From contig NZ_JAGBLU010000038.1 in the NCBI RefSeq assembly GCF_017635265.1, positions 1-64,000 on the forward strand: DNA of 64,000 bases. Direction: 5' to 3'. Made by a program: the position numbers and the translations under genes. This document shows positions 245 through 61,562 of this stretch, one piece after another; position 1 is the stretch's first letter; the number at the start of each line of letters is the position of its first letter. This DNA is from Butyrivibrio sp. (GTDB lineage Bacteria > Bacillota > Clostridia > Lachnospirales > Lachnospiraceae). The notes below the pieces were generated by a model. That model had not been told where the DNA came from. It saw only the letters and a list, made by a program, of their open reading frames with translations, and did no database searches.

Positions 245-1195
245 ATGATTTTAGGTAAGAAGGTATTTAAGCATTTTGCAGCTATTATGTTGGCAGGAGC
301 TGTTCTTGGGACTCCGGTGATTTCTTTTGCAGGAGCAGATGATACGTTTCAGTATCTGATCACAACCCAGGAAAGCGATGAGGAGTGGGACGGCACATCA
401 GGAACAGTGAAAACAACTGATGACTTGGAGCAGGAAAAAAAAGACGAGGAGGCACATCTTGCAGAATATAATGAACGGAAGGCTGCGTGGGATGCGACAG
501 AAGCTGCAAAGGTTATAGCGGCACAAGCGGAGGGTGAGACCTATATTCCTAGTGATTTTTACGAAGAATATATGTCATTATATAAAATCAATGGAGTTGC
601 TGCCAATGATTCGAATGTTACAGTTCCATTAGGTGCTACAATAGTTGATGAAGAAAATGGTAGTTCATCTGCTTACATATTGCGAGAGGGTGTAACAACT
701 CAAATTGATATATACAACATCACCCGAACCTTTTATACCGGAGCACCTTCCTCAGATTCAAGCTCTTCCTCCGAAAGCGCAGCTATCAACACCTCTGACT
801 CATCAGATTCAAGTGATGATGATAACGATAATGATGAAAACAGAGCAGAAACAACCTTTGAAGAAAAGGCAGAGGCAAGAGCCAGGAGAATGGCTTTCTA
901 TACTGTAAATAAAAGTGCAGAAGCAGCGATTTTAGCGGCAGGAAGTGGAATGGCCGTAAACATAAATACAGGTAATTACTACAGCTTCCACAGGTCAGTA
1001 TACGAAGCCCTCGCTCAAAGACCCGACGTCACACTTATCGTAGATTACAAATACAAGGGAAAAGCCTATGAACTCACCATCCCTGCCGGGGCAGTCACAA
1101 CAGACGGAACAGTAACACCCGATACCTTATGTGGAGATACAGACTATGCAGGCTTTTTGTATGTAGGGACATTCTTTGAAAATAAGGAAAGATAA
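245..1195 (+). CDS. Secreted protein of unknown function with Ser/Asp-rich linker
   Basis: This is a 316-residue protein I do not recognise. Residues 1-30 form a Sec signal peptide: basic KK, a hydrophobic core, and an Ala-rich end near SFAGA with no lipobox cysteine. The mature part starts with a charged, probably helical region. A low-complexity Ser/Asp/Asn/Glu tract at about 170-200 reads like a flexible surface linker. The C-terminal ~110 residues look globular, alternating beta-like strands with Tyr-rich turns. No LPXTG motif or membrane anchor follows. The start has AAGGAGG 8 bases upstream. The gene stands alone, with a terminator directly after it. Export is well supported; function is unknown. 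Confidence 0.75.
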   Translation: MILGKKVFKHFAAIMLAGAVLGTPVISFAGADDTFQYLITTQESDEEWDGTSGTVKTTDDLEQEKKDEEAHLAEYNERKAAWDATEAAKVIAAQAEGETYIPSDFYEEYMSLYKINGVAANDSNVTVPLGATIVDEENGSSSAYILREGVTTQIDIYNITRTFYTGAPSSDSSSSSESAAINTSDSSDSSDDDNDNDENRAETTFEEKAEARARRMAFYTVNKSAEAAILAAGSGMAVNINTGNYYSFHRSVYEALAQRPDVTLIVDYKYKGKAYELTIPAGAVTTDGTVTPDTLCGDTDYAGFLYVGTFFENKER

Positions 1196-1220
1196 ATAAA
1201 GATAGTTAAAGACAAAAAGA

Positions 1221-1260
1221 AGCAGGAGAGTGTAAATAGTACATTCTCCTGCTGTTTTTA
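1221..1260. terminator. Bidirectional terminator
   Basis: A perfect stem, AGCAGGAGA with TCTCCTGCT, is followed by TTTTT on the plus strand and preceded by an A-run that gives CTTTTTG on the minus strand. It lies between convergent genes (the secreted protein and the DegV gene) and probably ends both transcripts. Confidence 0.8.
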
Positions 1261-2094
1261 AAATGTCACCACAATTCCGCCATCTCCTGCATAGGTGGTG
1301 GCAACACCTGCGGCGTCCACAATTATGGCATCCTTAAAAGGAACTTTCTTTAGTATCAGATCGCGCACGACACAGGCTCTTTCGTAGCAGTTTACATGGG
1401 TAATCATAAGGCGCTTTTCCTGTGAATTTTTTATTTCGGAAGCTACAATGTCAGTCATTTTGACAAGAGCCTTTCTTATACCGATGCCTTGGCTTTTCTG
1501 AAGGATTTCTCCCTTTGAGCCGATACATACAGGCTTAATATTCAGTGTGGTTGCCACAAGAGCCTTCATACCTGATAGACGACCGTTTTTTCTAAGGGTT
1601 TCAAGAGAATCAAGTACAAAATATGTAGCCATTTCGTCGCGGTATTTTTCTACTTCCTCAACTACTTTTTCAAAAGAAAGACCGGACTCTGCAAGCTCCA
1701 TTGCCTTGAGGGCTATATTTGTTTCTCCGCAGCAGGCAGAAAGTGAATCAAATATATGTATGTTCTTTTCGCCTTTTTCTTCATGGTAAAGATCTTTGCC
1801 TAAAAGTGCGCTGTTGTAGCTGCCGCTGAGCTTGGATGAGAGTGTGACAACATAAACATCATCGGCCTGGCAATCATAAGCCTCCATGTAAAGTTCAGGT
1901 GAAGGGCATGCTGTTTTGGCACAGGACTTAGAAGCAGCAACCTTGGCTAAATAATCTGCCTGGTCAAAAGTATCGTCATCTACAATTACATTATCGTCAA
2001 TCTGTAAAATAAGAGGAACTACCTCAAAGTTTGGATTTTTTCTATATTCAACCGGCAGGTCGCAACAACTATCCACTACAATTTTATAACTCAT
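1258..2094 (-). CDS. DegV family fatty-acid-binding protein
   Basis: A 278-residue protein of the DegV family (usual length about 280). Known members are two-domain cytosolic proteins that bind a fatty acid; in several Firmicutes they act as the FakB subunit, presenting fatty acid to the kinase FakA. Family signs seen here are the N-terminal strand KIVVDSCCDLP, the ligand-loop region TACPSPE, the SSKLSGSYNSA motif, LDSLETLRKNGRLSG in the middle and KPV in the second domain. The start is supported by GGAGG about 5 bases upstream. No fakA-like gene is nearby, so the partner is not known. It is monocistronic, with an 8-bp inverted repeat upstream. Confidence 0.9.
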   Translation of the reverse strand: MSYKIVVDSCCDLPVEYRKNPNFEVVPLILQIDDNVIVDDDTFDQADYLAKVAASKSCAKTACPSPELYMEAYDCQADDVYVVTLSSKLSGSYNSALLGKDLYHEEKGEKNIHIFDSLSACCGETNIALKAMELAESGLSFEKVVEEVEKYRDEMATYFVLDSLETLRKNGRLSGMKALVATTLNIKPVCIGSKGEILQKSQGIGIRKALVKMTDIVASEIKNSQEKRLMITHVNCYERACVVRDLILKKVPFKDAIIVDAAGVATTYAGDGGIVVTF

Positions 2095-5754: not shown

Positions 5755-6198
5755 ATGGTTCGTACAATGACGATTGATGATTACGATGAAGTATACGCGC
5801 TCTGGATGTCGATACATGGTTTTGGTATCCGTTCAATTGACGATACTAAAGAAGGCGTAGAGATGTTTTTAAAAAGAAATCCCACCACAAGCGCAGTTGA
5901 TGTGGAGGATGGAAAGATAGTCGGTGCTATTTTATGTGGACATGATGGAAGAAGGGCCTGTCTTTATCATGTATGCGTAAGTGAAGAGTACAGAATGCAT
6001 GGAATCGGCAAAAAGATGGTTGAATTTTGCTGTGAGCAGCTAAAAAAAGAAAAGATCAATAAGGTCTGCCTGAATGCTTTTGTTACAAATACAGTCGGCA
6101 ATAAGTTCTGGCAGAAAATGGGATGGACATTCAGAACTGATCTCAATTATTACGATTTTGCTTTAAATGAAGGTAATCTGACTATATTTAATAAATGA
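5755..6198 (+). CDS. GNAT family N-acetyltransferase in the arginine operon
   Basis: A 147-residue single-domain GNAT protein. Motif A, which binds acetyl-CoA, is CVSEEYRMHGIGKKM at about residues 76-90 (RxxGxG). A C-terminal segment GNKFWQKMGW is typical of the fold. It lies 27 bases after argC and directly before argJ, so it is co-transcribed with arginine synthesis. Stand-alone GNATs can act as N-acetylglutamate synthases (ArgA role), which would top up the acetylated cycle, but sequence alone does not show this. Other acetyltransferase roles remain open. Confidence 0.8.
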   Translation: MVRTMTIDDYDEVYALWMSIHGFGIRSIDDTKEGVEMFLKRNPTTSAVDVEDGKIVGAILCGHDGRRACLYHVCVSEEYRMHGIGKKMVEFCCEQLKKEKINKVCLNAFVTNTVGNKFWQKMGWTFRTDLNYYDFALNEGNLTIFNK

Positions 6199-6291
6199 GC
6201 TGGTTACCGTTAGCGACCGTATTTTGGTCGGTTACGGTATCCGCATCCGAGCAGATATAGTCAGATAATAAAATATCGTTATTAGAGGTGG
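6197..6291 (+). ncRNA. Structured 5' leader motif, copy A (before argJ)
   Basis: First of three copies. GCTGG (6199-6203) is followed by a hairpin of TACCG (6205-6209) with CGGTA (6235-6239), enclosing CGACC/GGTCG. Next is the conserved GCATCCG (6243-6249). A second hairpin, TAATAA (6266-6271) with TTATTA (6279-6284), abuts the argJ ribosome binding site GAGGTGG. The copies at 18366 and 57165 share the order, the conserved bases and the distance from GCATCCG to the binding site (35, 34 and 35 bases). A TATATT at 6183-6188, inside the end of the upstream gene, would start a transcript at about 6195. It is probably a cis-regulatory RNA acting on translation initiation. Confidence 0.65.
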
Positions 6292-6300
6292 AGCAGATAT

Positions 6301-7524
6301 ATGAAAGAGATAACAGGTGGTATTACAGCAGCAAAAGGATTTAAGGCGGCAAGCTGCGAAGCAGGTATCAAGTATAAAGACAGGACTGATATGGCACTTA
6401 TATATTCCACAGAGCCCTGTGTGTGTGCAGGAACCTTTACTTCCAATGTAGTAAAGGCTGCATGTGTCCAGTGGGATAAAAAAATAGTTGAATCCGGTAG
6501 TACAATGCAGGCAGTTGTGATCAATTCAGGAATTGCCAATGCATGTACGGGAAAAGAGGGATTTGACGCATGCGAGGCAGTGGCAAAGGCAGTGGAAAAG
6601 AGCCTTGGAGTTGCTTATTTGTCAGTTGGCGTCGCATCTACCGGTGTAATTGGAATGCAGCTTCCTGTAGATAAGATGACACTTGGCGTATCTAAGATGA
6701 GTGAAAGCCTTGATGACAGTATTGAAGCAGGGACAGCAGCTTCAAAGGCCATTATGACAACTGATACGGTTAACAAAGAGATTGCCGTAACCTTTGATAT
6801 TGATGGAAAAGAGATCACTCTTGGAGGCATGAGCAAGGGCTCAGGAATGATCCATCCTAATATGTGCACCATGCTTGCTTTTTTATCTACCGATCTTAAG
6901 ATTGAGAAATCTCTGCTTCAGGAAGCGGTAAAAGACGTAGTAGCAGACTCTTTTAATATGATAACAGTTGATGGTGATACCTCAACCAACGATACTCTCT
7001 TGTGTATGGCAAATGGTCTTGCAGGAAATGACTGCATTAGCGAGAAAAACGATAATTATAAAAAGTTTAAAGAAGCTCTTTCCTACGTTTGCACATTTCT
7101 TGCCAAGAAGATGGCTTCCGATGGCGAGGGAGCAACAAAGCTTTTTGAAGCAAAAGTTGTAAATGCAAAAAGTAAAGCAGACGCAAGAACTCTTTCGAGA
7201 GCAATTGTTGGATCAAATCTTTCAAAAGCAGCTATCTACGGCTGCGACGCCAATTTCGGAAGATTTCTTTGTGCCATGGGATATTCCGGCGCTATCTTTG
7301 ATCAGAACGATGTGGAACTTTTCTTTGAAAGCGCAAATGGCAAGATAGAAGTTTTCCATATGGGAACACCTCTTGATTTTGATGAGGCTAAGGCACTTGA
7401 AATAATGAAGGCAGATGCTGTAACAGTACTTGTGGACATGCATGAGGGCGATGAGTCGGCGACAGCATGGGGATGTGATCTTACATATGACTATGTGAAG
7501 ATTAATGCTGATTACAGGTCATGA
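6301..7524 (+). CDS. argJ: Bifunctional glutamate N-acetyltransferase/amino-acid acetyltransferase
   Basis: A 407-residue ArgJ (usual length about 400). It transfers acetyl from N-acetylornithine to glutamate, recycling the acetyl group, and in many Firmicutes also uses acetyl-CoA. The precursor self-cleaves into alpha and beta chains at a Thr. Here that Thr is T190 in [11 protein letters not shown], preceded by KGSGMIHPN, so the usual Ala before the Thr is Cys. DGDTSTNDT and the C-terminal [20 protein letters not shown] match the family. The start is preceded by GAGGTGG directly after leader copy A, which suggests control separate from argC. Confidence 0.96.
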
Positions 7525-18365: not shown

Positions 18366-18479
18366 TTGGCTGGATACAATACTGATAGGACTATATTTAG
18401 ATAATTGCTTTATGCATTTTATTGTATCGGCATCCGGGTGGTGCAGCCAGACAATAAAGTTTGTGTTGTCGGAGGAAAG
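18366..18479 (+). ncRNA. Structured 5' leader motif, copy C (before DUF1653 gene)
   Basis: GCTGG (18369-18373) overlaps a perfect 9-bp stem, GATACAATA (18373-18381) with TATTGTATC (18420-18428). GCATCCG follows at 18430-18436. A hairpin of GACAA (18450-18454) with TTGTC (18466-18470) sits directly against the binding site GGAGG (18471-18475). GGCTG (18368-18372) can also pair with CAGCC (18444-18448), closing the structure. Stems differ in sequence from copies A and B but pair in the same places. It is a probable cis-regulatory leader; its ligand or effector is unknown. Confidence 0.65.
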
Positions 18480-18484
18480 AGAGA

Positions 18485-19153
18485 ATGGATAGACAAAGAC
18501 CTGTGCCTTATGAGTTATTCAGGCATTTTAAGGGGAATATGTATCAGATTGTTTCTATAGCAATCCATTCTGAAACAAGGGAAGAGATGGTTGTCTATCA
18601 GGCTCTTTATGGTGATTATAAAGTATATGTAAGGCCGCTTGATATGTTTATGTCTGAGGTTGATCATGATAAATATCCTAATGTAAAGCAGAAGTACCGC
18701 TTTGAGAGAGTAAAAAAAGACTCAGAAAGTACAGAAGATAAAGTAGTAAGTTCTGAAAAGGTTGAAACTTCCGGTTTTTCAGATAAAAAGAATGAAGTAG
18801 TCCGAACTGAAGCAAAAGCTGAAAAGGAAACTACTAAAAGAGATGAAATCCGAAAACAGTTCAGGAGCGAACCATATAAGAGATCTGAAGTTATGGATAA
18901 ATCTATAGATTCCGAGGCAGAAGAGTTGAATCTTAATCCTCTTGTAATAGAGTTTATGGATGCAGATCTTGCAGTTGATAAAAATGACATTTTAACCAAA
19001 CTTCGTCCCGTGATAACAAATGATATGATTGACATCATGGCGATGTCACTTGGCGTAGTTGTTAAAGAGGGAGATGTTTATGACAGGTACAATGATCTTC
19101 GAACCTGTCTTACGACAATTGAAAAATTTGAGAGTACCAGATTAAGGAGTTAA
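18485..19153 (+). CDS. DUF1653 domain protein
   Basis: A 222-residue protein. The N-terminal ~65 residues match the DUF1653 family: PYELFRHFKGNMYQIVSIAIHSET ... VVYQALYGDYKVYVRPLDMFMSEV. The middle (about 70-135) is a Lys/Glu-rich linker. A C-terminal ~80-residue helical region is unrecognised. The ATG at 18485 is chosen because GGAGG precedes it, rather than the GTG-type start 24 bases earlier. It is controlled by its own promoter and leader motif copy C, and the glycosyltransferase starts 5 bases after it. Function unknown. Confidence 0.8.
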   Translation: MDRQRPVPYELFRHFKGNMYQIVSIAIHSETREEMVVYQALYGDYKVYVRPLDMFMSEVDHDKYPNVKQKYRFERVKKDSESTEDKVVSSEKVETSGFSDKKNEVVRTEAKAEKETTKRDEIRKQFRSEPYKRSEVMDKSIDSEAEELNLNPLVIEFMDADLAVDKNDILTKLRPVITNDMIDIMAMSLGVVVKEGDVYDRYNDLRTCLTTIEKFESTRLRS

Positions 19154-57164: not shown

Positions 57165-57260
57165 GGAGCTGGTTACCGCTTGAGCATGTATTTCTTGCCT
57201 TTGCGGTATCCGCATCCGACTAGAATAAGACAAATAATATAATTGCGTTATTAGAGGAGG
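57165..57260 (+). ncRNA. Structured 5' leader motif, copy B (before citrate synthase)
   Basis: GCTGG (57168-57172), a stem TACCGC (57174-57179) with GCGGTA (57203-57208), and GCATCCG (57212-57218). Next comes a hairpin AATAA (57233-57237) with TTATT (57248-57252) against the binding site GAGGAGG (57254-57260). The hairpin loop differs in sequence and length from copy A while the stem pairs are kept. A TATAAT at 57153-57158 places the transcript start about 57165, at the motif edge. The start region of the gene, TGCGGAT (57261-57267), can pair with ATCCGCA (57208-57214) in the motif, a possible off state. Confidence 0.65.
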
Positions 57261-57265
57261 TGCGG

Positions 57266-58639
57266 ATGGATTTAGGAAAAGGATATTACGCAGAAAACAC
57301 ACCGGAGATTATTGAATTATCTAAGCTTTCGAAAACAGCGGACATGATCGAGAATGATCTTTTCATCAAATATGATGTAAAAAGAGGCCTTCGAGATTTA
57401 AACGGAAAAGGCGTGCTTACCGGTCTTACACGAATTTCAGAGATTGTTGCCAAGGAGGTAGTAGATGGAAAAGAGGTTCCAAAAGACGGCGAGATTTATT
57501 TTAGAGGATATGATGTCCATGAACTGATAAATGCAGCAGTAAAAGAGAACAGATTTGCATTTGAGGAATGTACTTATCTGCTGCTTTTTGATAAGCTTCC
57601 GTCAGGAAAAGAGCTCTTTGAATTTGAAAAACTATTGGGAATATATAAGAGCCTTCCACCAAGCTTTGTTCGAGATGTCATAATGAAGGCGCCAAGCCGT
57701 GATATGATGAACACCCTTGCAAGAAGCGTTTTGACTTTGTATTCCTACGACGACCTTGCTGATGATGTATCACTTCCCAATGTGCTTAGGCAGTCACTTC
57801 AGCTGATCAGTATGTTCCCGCTTTTATCAATTTACGGGTATCATGCCTATAATCATTATCATGAGGGGAATTCCCTCATTATCCATCCGCCGAAGGAGGA
57901 ACTTTCTACTGCAGAGACGATCCTTTATCTCCTTAGACCTGACAGCAAGTATACAGAGCTTGAAGCAAAGCTTTTGGATATTTGTCTGGTGCTCCATATG
58001 GAGCATGGCGGTGGTAACAATTCATCTTTTACAACACACGTAGTGAGCTCAAGTCTTACAGATACTTACTCTGTTATTGCAGCTGCCATCGGTTCTTTAA
58101 AGGGACCTCGTCACGGCGGAGCTAATGTTAAGGTGGTTCATATGTTTGACGATATAGAGGCAAATGTTAAAGATTGGAAAGATGAAGAAGAGGTAGTAGC
58201 ATATCTTGATAAAATACTAAATAAAGAAGCTTTTGACAGATCGGGGCTTATTTATGGTATTGGACACGCTATCTATTCTAAGTCCGATCCGAGAGCCATG
58301 ATTCTAAAGGGCTTTGTTGAAAAACTTGCCGCTGAGAAGGGCAAAGAGGATGAGCTTGCTCTTTATGAAATGGTAGAACGTCTTGCACCAAGGATCATTA
58401 GTGGTGAGAGAACGATGTACAAGGGCGTAAGTGCCAATGTGGACTTTTATTCAGGCTTTGTATACAGAATGCTTGAGCTTCCGGAAGAACTTTATCCGAC
58501 AATTTTTGCCATTGCCAGAATTGTCGGTTGGAGCGCTCACAGAATGGAAGAGCTTGCCAATAACGGCAAGATAATCAGACCTGCCTACATGGCAATAGAA
58601 CCCCGAAAAGATTATGTTCCTATGTCTGAAAGAAAATAA
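57266..58639 (+). CDS. gltA: Citrate synthase
   Basis: A 457-residue citrate synthase condensing acetyl-CoA and oxaloacetate; in this setting it probably feeds 2-oxoglutarate and glutamate synthesis. GVLTGLTRISEIV and GEIYFRGYDVHELI start the enzyme. Catalytic His/Asp regions are LHMEHGGGNNSSFTTHVVSSS, KGPRHGGANVKVV and YGIGHAIYSKSDPRA. It is slightly longer than the E. coli type, as usual in clostridia. ATG 57266 follows GAGGAGG; the GTG at 57260 overlaps the binding site. It is controlled by leader motif copy B. Confidence 0.93.
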   Translation: MDLGKGYYAENTPEIIELSKLSKTADMIENDLFIKYDVKRGLRDLNGKGVLTGLTRISEIVAKEVVDGKEVPKDGEIYFRGYDVHELINAAVKENRFAFEECTYLLLFDKLPSGKELFEFEKLLGIYKSLPPSFVRDVIMKAPSRDMMNTLARSVLTLYSYDDLADDVSLPNVLRQSLQLISMFPLLSIYGYHAYNHYHEGNSLIIHPPKEELSTAETILYLLRPDSKYTELEAKLLDICLVLHMEHGGGNNSSFTTHVVSSSLTDTYSVIAAAIGSLKGPRHGGANVKVVHMFDDIEANVKDWKDEEEVVAYLDKILNKEAFDRSGLIYGIGHAIYSKSDPRAMILKGFVEKLAAEKGKEDELALYEMVERLAPRIISGERTMYKGVSANVDFYSGFVYRMLELPEELYPTIFAIARIVGWSAHRMEELANNGKIIRPAYMAIEPRKDYVPMSERK

Positions 58640-61334: not shown

Positions 61335-61530
61335 GTACATAAGTGCTTCTCCTGGGGTGTCCGACATCTCCTGTGTAATTTGAACCTACATTACTTTAAA
61401 CGGGACTCCTACATCACCATTTTTTATGTCACGCCTTCGGCTCTGCGCATGCGCAGGTTTAGCTTTGGGAGAGGAAGACAGAGATTGTGGTTGCGGTAAC
61501 CCACCTAGCGCTGTCTAGGAGTCAAATAAC
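61335..61530 (+). ncRNA. ssrS: 6S RNA
   Basis: A ~190-nt RNA fills the gap between the aminopeptidase gene and yihY. The closing stem pairs CTCCTGG (61349-61355) with CTAGGAG (61515-61521). The 5' side GGGGTGTCCG and the 3' side GGTTGCGGTAACCCACCTAGCGC resemble the conserved terminal regions of 6S RNA. The middle forms a large asymmetric region capped by a GCCTTCGGC hairpin near 61433-61441, as expected for the open-complex mimic. 6S RNA binds the sigma-A holoenzyme in stationary phase. Confidence 0.75.
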
Positions 61531-61562
61531 AGGAAACGGCATTTTGGGGTTTATTTGGAATC

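Follow-up and report, generated by a model that had tools for sequence, protein, structure and literature searches.

A family of small, structured and probably mobile repeats that enters at Shine-Dalgarno sites in Butyrivibrio

Results

Related leaders precede three genes

By the window we mean the whole 64,000-nt stretch of Butyrivibrio sp. DNA analysed here. Three of its genes, encoding argJ, a DUF1653 protein and citrate synthase, are preceded by related leaders (hereafter copies A, B and C, respectively) that run up to the Shine-Dalgarno (SD) sequence (Table 1). A first-pass annotation, made from the sequence alone, had noticed shared leader sequences at 6197, about 18366 and 57165, and these are present as claimed. 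Pfam supports the target identities it gave (ArgJ, DUF1653 and citrate synthase), and its spacing of 35, 34 and 35 nt from GCATCCG to the SD is correct when counted on the three window copies. The exact string GTATCSGCATCCG occurs in the window at 6237, 18424 and 57206. The pattern GTATC(C/G)GCATCCG has three exact matches in the window and nine in the genome to which it belongs, compared with none for a reversed control; eight of these nine are the motif or part of it, and the other (L006) lacks the rest of the motif when judged by eye.

Table 1. Positions of the leader copies, their parts and their target genes in the window
Feature	Position	Strand	Remarks and basis
Copy A, left junction	6196..6199	+	TGAG, GGAG-like; overlaps stop codon of GNAT gene (5755-6198)
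Copy A, inserted unit 5′ of argJ	6200..6293	+	ends in SD (GAGGTGGAG)
Copy A, hairpin P2	6205..6239	+	covariation in 64 copies; fold
Copy A, outer stem P1, enclosing P2	6197..6248	+	family pairing of GGAGC..GG with CC..GCATCC
Copy A, 3′ module	6260..6293	+	GTCAGATA, weak hairpin P3, SD
argJ, target of copy A	6301..7524	+	Pfam PF01960
Copy B, weak and 5′-atypical, 5′ of DUF1653 gene	18424..18475	+	R2 21 bits; comparison with alleles without copy B
DUF1653 gene, target of copy B	18485..19153	+	Pfam PF07866
Copy C, left GGAG (SD of the target before insertion)	57165..57168	+	...GGAGGTGCGTATGG in alleles lacking the unit
Copy C, inserted unit of 91 nt, 5′ of citrate synthase	57169..57259	+	ends GAGGAG; joined flanks match G087 leader
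Citrate synthase, target of copy C	57266..58639	+	Pfam PF00285; GTG at 57260 a possible alternative start

We built two covariance models, R1 from 11 copies and R2 from 64; hairpin P3 is one column off in R1 and correct in R2. Copy A scores 115 bits with R1 and 102 with R2, and copy C 105 and 88 bits, both copies being among the rows of both models. Copy B, absent from the model rows, scores 16 bits with R1 (E 0.098) and 21 bits with R2 (E 0.004). The earlier picture of three equal copies thus holds for A and C, which are clear members, and fails for B. In relatives without the motif, the arm 'GCTGGATAC' of copy B is native upstream DNA. Because this native DNA reaches into the arm, the proposed stem 1 of copy B does not look homologous to that of A and C, and copy B appears to resemble the family only in its 3′ part, from GTATCGGCATCCG onward.

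At the place where copy A has TGAG, the consensus of the 64 copies is GGAG, and P1 is weaker in copy A because of this left end. The argJ leader of B. proteoclasticus P18 shares copy A, with 94% identity between its argJ and the window's; no empty site was scored for this argJ. A consensus scan found neither a promoter nor a terminator in copy A. The leader had been said not to resemble familiar riboswitch classes, and Rfam covariance models indeed gave no match to it at the gathering score. The sole such match in the window is a 6S RNA at 61346-61554 (+). The THF riboswitch contains GCATCCG, as the leader does; it was rejected, the leader being without any Rfam match.

The unit sits between two GGAGs and is missing from relatives

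To compare occupied and unoccupied leaders, we looked in eight genomes for 20 gene starts, 17 of them taken from the window's own genome and 3 from P18. Eighteen leaders aligned, the exceptions being those of a tRNA synthetase (L069) and a NifH-like gene (L073), and 16 were scored, with purE and DUF1653 left out as unclear, by joining the flanks around the two GGAGs and comparing them with relatives' leaders. In 13 of the 16 comparisons with a motif-free relative, joined flanks beat unjoined ones by at least 20 score units. The inserted length at these clean sites was 88–94 nt in 12 and 114 nt in argH. The unit sits between two GGAGs, that is, the SD itself: the citrate synthase leader reads ...AATAGGAG, then 91 nt, then GTGCGGATGG, versus ...CAGGAGGTGCGTATGG in relatives. 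Three leader pairs (obgE, C110 and aroK) were not clean. At C41 the left GGAG has decayed, and at C48 of P18 (G012) GGGGAA or GGGGTG stands in the alleles that lack the unit. The clean empty sites lead us to conclude that the motif arrives by insertion.

The unit has also multiplied. Eight copies at different genes are 82–98% identical within the element and 2–61% identical in their flanks (crude alignment), and the loops are near-identical between copies at unrelated genes. Across species, L018 of P18 and L019 of G059, which lie at different genes, are 98% identical within the element. Compared with the citrate synthase of the window, that of G059 is 72% identical and that of P18 94%, which makes a large distance between the two hosts probable, each having been compared with the window only. 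Tandem units of about 90 nt share a GGAG (L049-L051).

Copies supply the SD of a downstream gene

We read 158 copies from 31 genomes, comprising the R1 and R2 matches in fetched loci and the DUF1653 site; L109 (which coincides with L017), additional tandem units, copies of the 3′ part only and unfetched R1 matches lie outside this set. In 142 of the 158, the copy supplies the SD of a same-strand open reading frame (ORF) of at least 50 aa whose start lies 6–27 nt past the first SD base. Among the 16 that failed this test, L086, L233 and L065 have a start further downstream, the start of L230 was missed by the rule, L103 has an ATG with a short frame, and L005, L090, L062, L061 and L364 look degenerate or have no gene visible after the copy. 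Three of the 158 lie inside an open frame.

Orientation is equally constrained. On the opposite strand, 27 of the 158 copies have the start of an ORF of at least 50 aa no more than 40 nt from their left end, and an SD-like site for an ORF start at that other end was present in none of the 158. REP sequences moved by RAYT would be expected in both orientations relative to genes, which was not seen across these copies. For the background, a simple gene call placed 31 intergenic GGAGs of the window at SDs and 24 elsewhere, or 36 versus 24 once five SDs inside upstream genes are added. SD placement, seen in 90% of copies, is thus expected by chance in about 56–60%, although the models include the SD and so favour the recovery of SD-bearing copies. 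Predicted SD accessibility was 0.55 with the unit and 0.50 without it over 16 pairs (the start of C133 was placed 6 nt off), with no clear difference, and we rejected the idea that insertion improves it.

The outer hairpin covaries

A typical unit consists of a 5′ hairpin (P1/P2), in which GGAGC pairs with GCATCC, and a 3′ module made up of GTCAGATA, the weak hairpin P3 and the SD. Over the 64 aligned copies, 79.3% of cells in P1, P2 and P3 are paired, compared with 75.8% in shuffles and 32–44% when the pairing is slid. Cells changed on both sides number 60, compared with 29.5 in shuffles, of which 0 of 500 reach 60; further pair types number 49 (41.5 in shuffles, 5 of 500 as high); and the covariation score is 0.172 (0.125 in shuffles, 0 of 500 as high). 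Pairs with both sides changed number 15, which does not exceed the shuffled level (13.7; 169 of 500). Because the rows of the alignment are related, these shuffle figures are not probabilities. P1 pairs 7-60 to 14-53, with double changes at 10-56 (three cells), 13-54 (eight) and 14-53 (one). P3 is weak and its register varies; it has 2.35 pairs per segment versus 0.95 in shuffles, counted on 96 distinct segments among 116 found in the 158 copies. The first-pass annotation had seen a motif that abuts the SD and whose stems vary yet keep pairing. The first point holds in many copies, and in the larger set of 64 the second stands for P1/P2 and only weakly for P3.

Three orthologous copies carry one G-C/A-T double change, plus unpaired changes. 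The double change would speak for some constraint after insertion; in another orthologous group, one change breaks a pair. Five single folds gave z-scores of -1.9 to -4.25. In minimum free energy (MFE) folds, GCATCC pairs with the SD region in copies A and C and with the 5′ GGAGC in L043, L219 and L082. A strand test (92 G-T versus 60 A-C cells, uncorrected for relatedness among rows) mildly favours the mRNA-sense strand. An alternative pairing, CTGG/CCGG, with 74% of its cells paired and few double changes, may also form.

Target genes are unrelated and rarely shared

Pfam assigned 30 chosen targets, from the window's own genome (G000), the metagenome-assembled genome RUI181 (G085) and MC2013 (G020), to functionally unrelated families. 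These were class II tRNA synthetase, FGGY kinase, TrkA, FlgK, DNA ligase, MscL, NifH-like, Obg, argininosuccinate lyase, shikimate kinase, arabinose isomerase, a GTPase, DNA_processg_A, GMP synthase C-terminal, PTS EIIC, TPP enzyme, DnaJ, MinC, citrate synthase, Orn/Lys/Arg decarboxylase and others. DNA ligase, Obg and class II tRNA synthetase genes are expected to be essential. Among the 142 target ORFs, only six gene groups are shared between genomes: argJ (G000, G012 and G085), citrate synthase (G000 and G020), and groups in G052/G053/G005, G012/G047/G087, G019/G094 and G012/G054. Three further matches (L008-L379 and L076-L031, at 25–29% identity, and two starts of one gene at L050) are paralogy or the same gene.

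The same genes in relatives are mostly free of the motif. With R2 we found it in 0 of 23 relatives' citrate synthase loci (23 of 30 fetched, the window's own excluded and the G020 locus, which has a copy, not included) and in 2 of 20 relatives' argJ loci (20 of 80). The target set is not a conserved regulon. The earlier proposal of a regulon that senses a metabolite of the route from acetyl-CoA to glutamate and arginine is therefore not supported, since the targets are unrelated and hardly shared and the same genes in relatives mostly lack the motif.

Distribution is patchy

Searches with the covariance models found the motif in Butyrivibrio and a few other Lachnospiraceae. Of 79 genomes from the genus, 24 have an R1 match at E 0.001 and 55 have none. 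Carriers have from 1 to at least 49 matches: at least 49 in RUI181, a lower bound because the candidates scored there also numbered 49, 34 in MC2013, 19 in the window's own genome and 8 in P18. In the family, R2 found the motif in at least 8 of 397 genomes, in 8 of 334 genera (best 9 candidates per genome scored), and in the class in at least 2 of 391 genomes, both of the window's own genus (best 10 candidates scored). The 3′ module pattern, with up to two mismatches, occurs in 4 of the 397 family genomes, and its reversed control in none. Four same-strand copies lie within ~17 kb of a 51-kb contig, G011:C33 (L027, L363, L364). For carriage by phages or plasmids, blastn with one query copy, L043, gave no match; seven IMG/VR contigs with a 17-base pattern were rejected as carriers, none being an R2 match.

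Variant forms keep the SD end

In other genera the apical hairpin is swapped, and GGAGCC...GGCATCCGAC, GTCAGATA and GTTTATAGAGGAG are largely kept. Five copies (L009, L390 in the tpiA leader, L239, L422 and L434) consist of the 3′ part only; the 3′ module also occurs with unrelated upstream sequence, as at L390, and the 5′-incomplete DUF1653 copy has no left GGAG. Copies reduced to the 3′ module would be compatible both with selection for the SD end and with a copy mechanism that truncates at the 5′ side. Next to L390 (G000:C11), where the 3′ module stands alone, the opposite-strand neighbour, the aroK copy, has the full long form. In L075 (G000) and in L391, L394 and L395 (G333), which represent two genera, an extra hairpin lies between GCATCC and GAC, followed by CATACANNGTAGAC; no cargo ORF was seen between the ends of this form.

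Candidate mobilisers show no clear link to carriers

We found no autonomous copy and no mobilising enzyme. A Y1 transposase gene is present in 20 of 24 carriers and in 40 of 55 non-carriers, and the four carriers without one are 66–97% complete. Searching 30 of more than 150 Y1 loci with R2 yielded no TnpA-encoding full-length relative with the same ends and a single copy, L327, part of the leader of a gene next door; the IS200 beside L327 was rejected as a source, being a mere neighbour. At L019 (G059:C1), the top-scoring R1 copy lies in the leader of a Y1/RAYT-like gene of 246 aa (761-1501 (-), PF01797), which has other inverted repeats, with GGGGACGTTTC in them, on its flanks. Because of these other flanking repeats, and because Y1 genes show no clear link to carriers, we provisionally set RAYT aside as the mobiliser. 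The hallmarks of DDE transposition, terminal inverted repeats and target duplication, are absent: by eye, in the copies read, the ends are GGAGC... and ...GAGGAG, and only GGAG is repeated.

Discussion

We consider it probable, at roughly 0.78, that these leaders belong to a family of small structured repeats which move, insert at the SD and carry a replacement SD with them. As in small interspersed mobile repeats, loci with no relation to one another hold near-identical copies and empty sites are precise; as in elements derived from IS200/IS605, the unit lies 3′ of a short invariant target in a single orientation and has subterminal hairpins. Insertion at GGAG, its orientation, multiplication at unrelated genes, patchy distribution and the P1/P2 pairing are established at the level of sequence comparison. 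The members would be non-autonomous elements of rumen bacteria, about 85–95 nt long, with longer forms too, from Butyrivibrio and a few other Lachnospiraceae. A unit would enter directly 3′ of a GGAG that is nearly always the SD of a gene. The GAGGAG at its 3′ end would then provide the gene with a normally spaced SD, and the unit would serve as the 5′ leader. HUH (Y1) transposases of IS200/IS605 and REP recognise a hairpin together with a tetranucleotide, both on a single DNA strand, and an enzyme that recognises the hairpin and GGAG in this manner may mobilise the unit in trans. Copies elsewhere may be rare because they are harmful there or because such sites are not targeted.

Translation is probably affected only mildly, because the element occurs before genes expected to be essential, and modest attenuation is possible because GCATCC can pair with either the 5′ GGAGC or the SD. 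Two distant species carry a copy at citrate synthase, and three genomes one at argJ, a recurrence that random insertion need not give. It is possible, though we incline against it, that the machinery specifically reads SD sites (a sense GGAG before a start), and that an element carrying its own SD thereby settles in front of essential genes that go on being translated, leaving a structured RNA in each mRNA. Such machinery might act on RNA, or on single-stranded DNA exposed at the SD.

Structured leaders near the SD, compensatory changes in them, pairing of GCATCC with the 3′ SD region in the MFE folds of copies A and C, and hits on citrate synthase and argJ in more than one species are also what a metabolite-sensing riboswitch, or another cis-regulator with a defined regulon, would offer. 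This is very improbable given targets that are unrelated and barely shared (142 ORFs; Pfam of 30), clean empty sites, loops near-identical between copies at unrelated genes, and 55 of 79 genomes of the genus without a match at E 0.001. Alternatively, the elements could be mobile and yet kept as useful RNAs, with a trans factor (an RNA-binding protein or small RNA) tuning the translation of all carriers together and selection accounting for the SD placement. The excess at SDs (90% of copies, versus about 56–60% of intergenic GGAGs), the structure kept in diverged copies, the 3′ module joined to unrelated upstream sequence and the compensatory pair in orthologs are consistent with this view; we nonetheless find it unlikely, as there is no consistent target set, close relatives lack the element at the same genes and predicted SD accessibility hardly differs (0.55 versus 0.50, 16 pairs).

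The remaining alternatives concern how copies spread. If a transcribed leader were reverse-transcribed and inserted at GGAG, both the sense orientation at the SD and the 5′-incomplete copies would be explained, including those of the 3′ part alone (L009, L390, L239, L422, L434). Loss of the 5′ part is, however, also expected if selection acts on the SD end alone, and the 5′-incomplete DUF1653 copy is missing the left GGAG; an RNA intermediate thus seems less likely again. Spread from one SD region to another by homologous recombination or gene conversion alone is hardly credible: GGAG is indeed the only sequence shared at the ends, but homologous recombination needs more than four bases and the flanks are otherwise dissimilar.

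Read as a mobile element that enters at the SD, the family resembles in kind, by analogy, BOX, REP and MITE repeats. MITE-like derivatives of IS200/IS605 have asymmetric hairpin ends, insert in one orientation 3′ of a short target and make no classical duplication. Hairpin ends, a fixed short target, one orientation and the lack of classical target duplication are common to both; here, by contrast, no transposase-bearing copy was found and the target is the GGAG at SDs. REP sequences and BIMEs, with their RAYT (TnpA-REP), share hairpins, extragenic position and many copies. In the text available of the respective papers, GTAG-tagged REPs have a fixed tetranucleotide at one end and, unlike the present element, REPs are 20–40 bp long (PMC3733652) and alternate in orientation within BIMEs (PMC2817692). 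A term search for GGAG and Shine-Dalgarno in the available text of three REP/HUH papers returned neither (PMC2817692, PMC6006769, PMC3733652). The BOX, RUP and SPRITE repeats of Streptococcus pneumoniae are likewise small, structured, non-autonomous repeats in transcribed leaders, with tandem modules in BOX; by contrast they are modular and over-represented between convergent genes, and the part of their description available mentions no SD insertion (PMC3049150). BOX is reported there 16 times between convergent CDSs and 70 times upstream of at least one CDS (PMC3049150, available text). Rickettsia palindromic elements, too, are small mobile repeats that enter genes without destroying their use; according to the text available, nearly half enter reading frames and are translatable, whereas the Butyrivibrio element enters the SD (PMC10969869). 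In the open-licence literature we found no report of a repeat inserted at SD sites, nor of the motif in Butyrivibrio.

Structured, covarying leaders in many copies are the usual signature by which riboswitches are nominated, and the same signature here comes from what is probably a mobile element; empty sites distinguish the two. If SD targeting is true, a mobile element would be living in the handful of bases under the tightest constraint in a bacterial gene and would be a natural source of new mRNA leaders. The enzyme, once identified, could become a tool for inserting short sequences at ribosome-binding sites.

Several copies are associated with other repeats. A separate repeat (TTTGATGTCCTCAAAG...CCCCCGATTAGAAATCGGGGG) is nested in the long copy L436 at about 897-983 (G146), and thirteen further partial matches to it occur in the same genome. 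In MC2013, L059 and L378 have the same further repeat, GGAACCATCATGACGAAGTCATGATT(C/T)GGAATGGTTCC, between the element's SD and the gene. At L366 (G005), the element's SD is followed by the complementary CTCCTACTCT, and the resulting hairpin could close this SD ahead of a second SD-like site and start.
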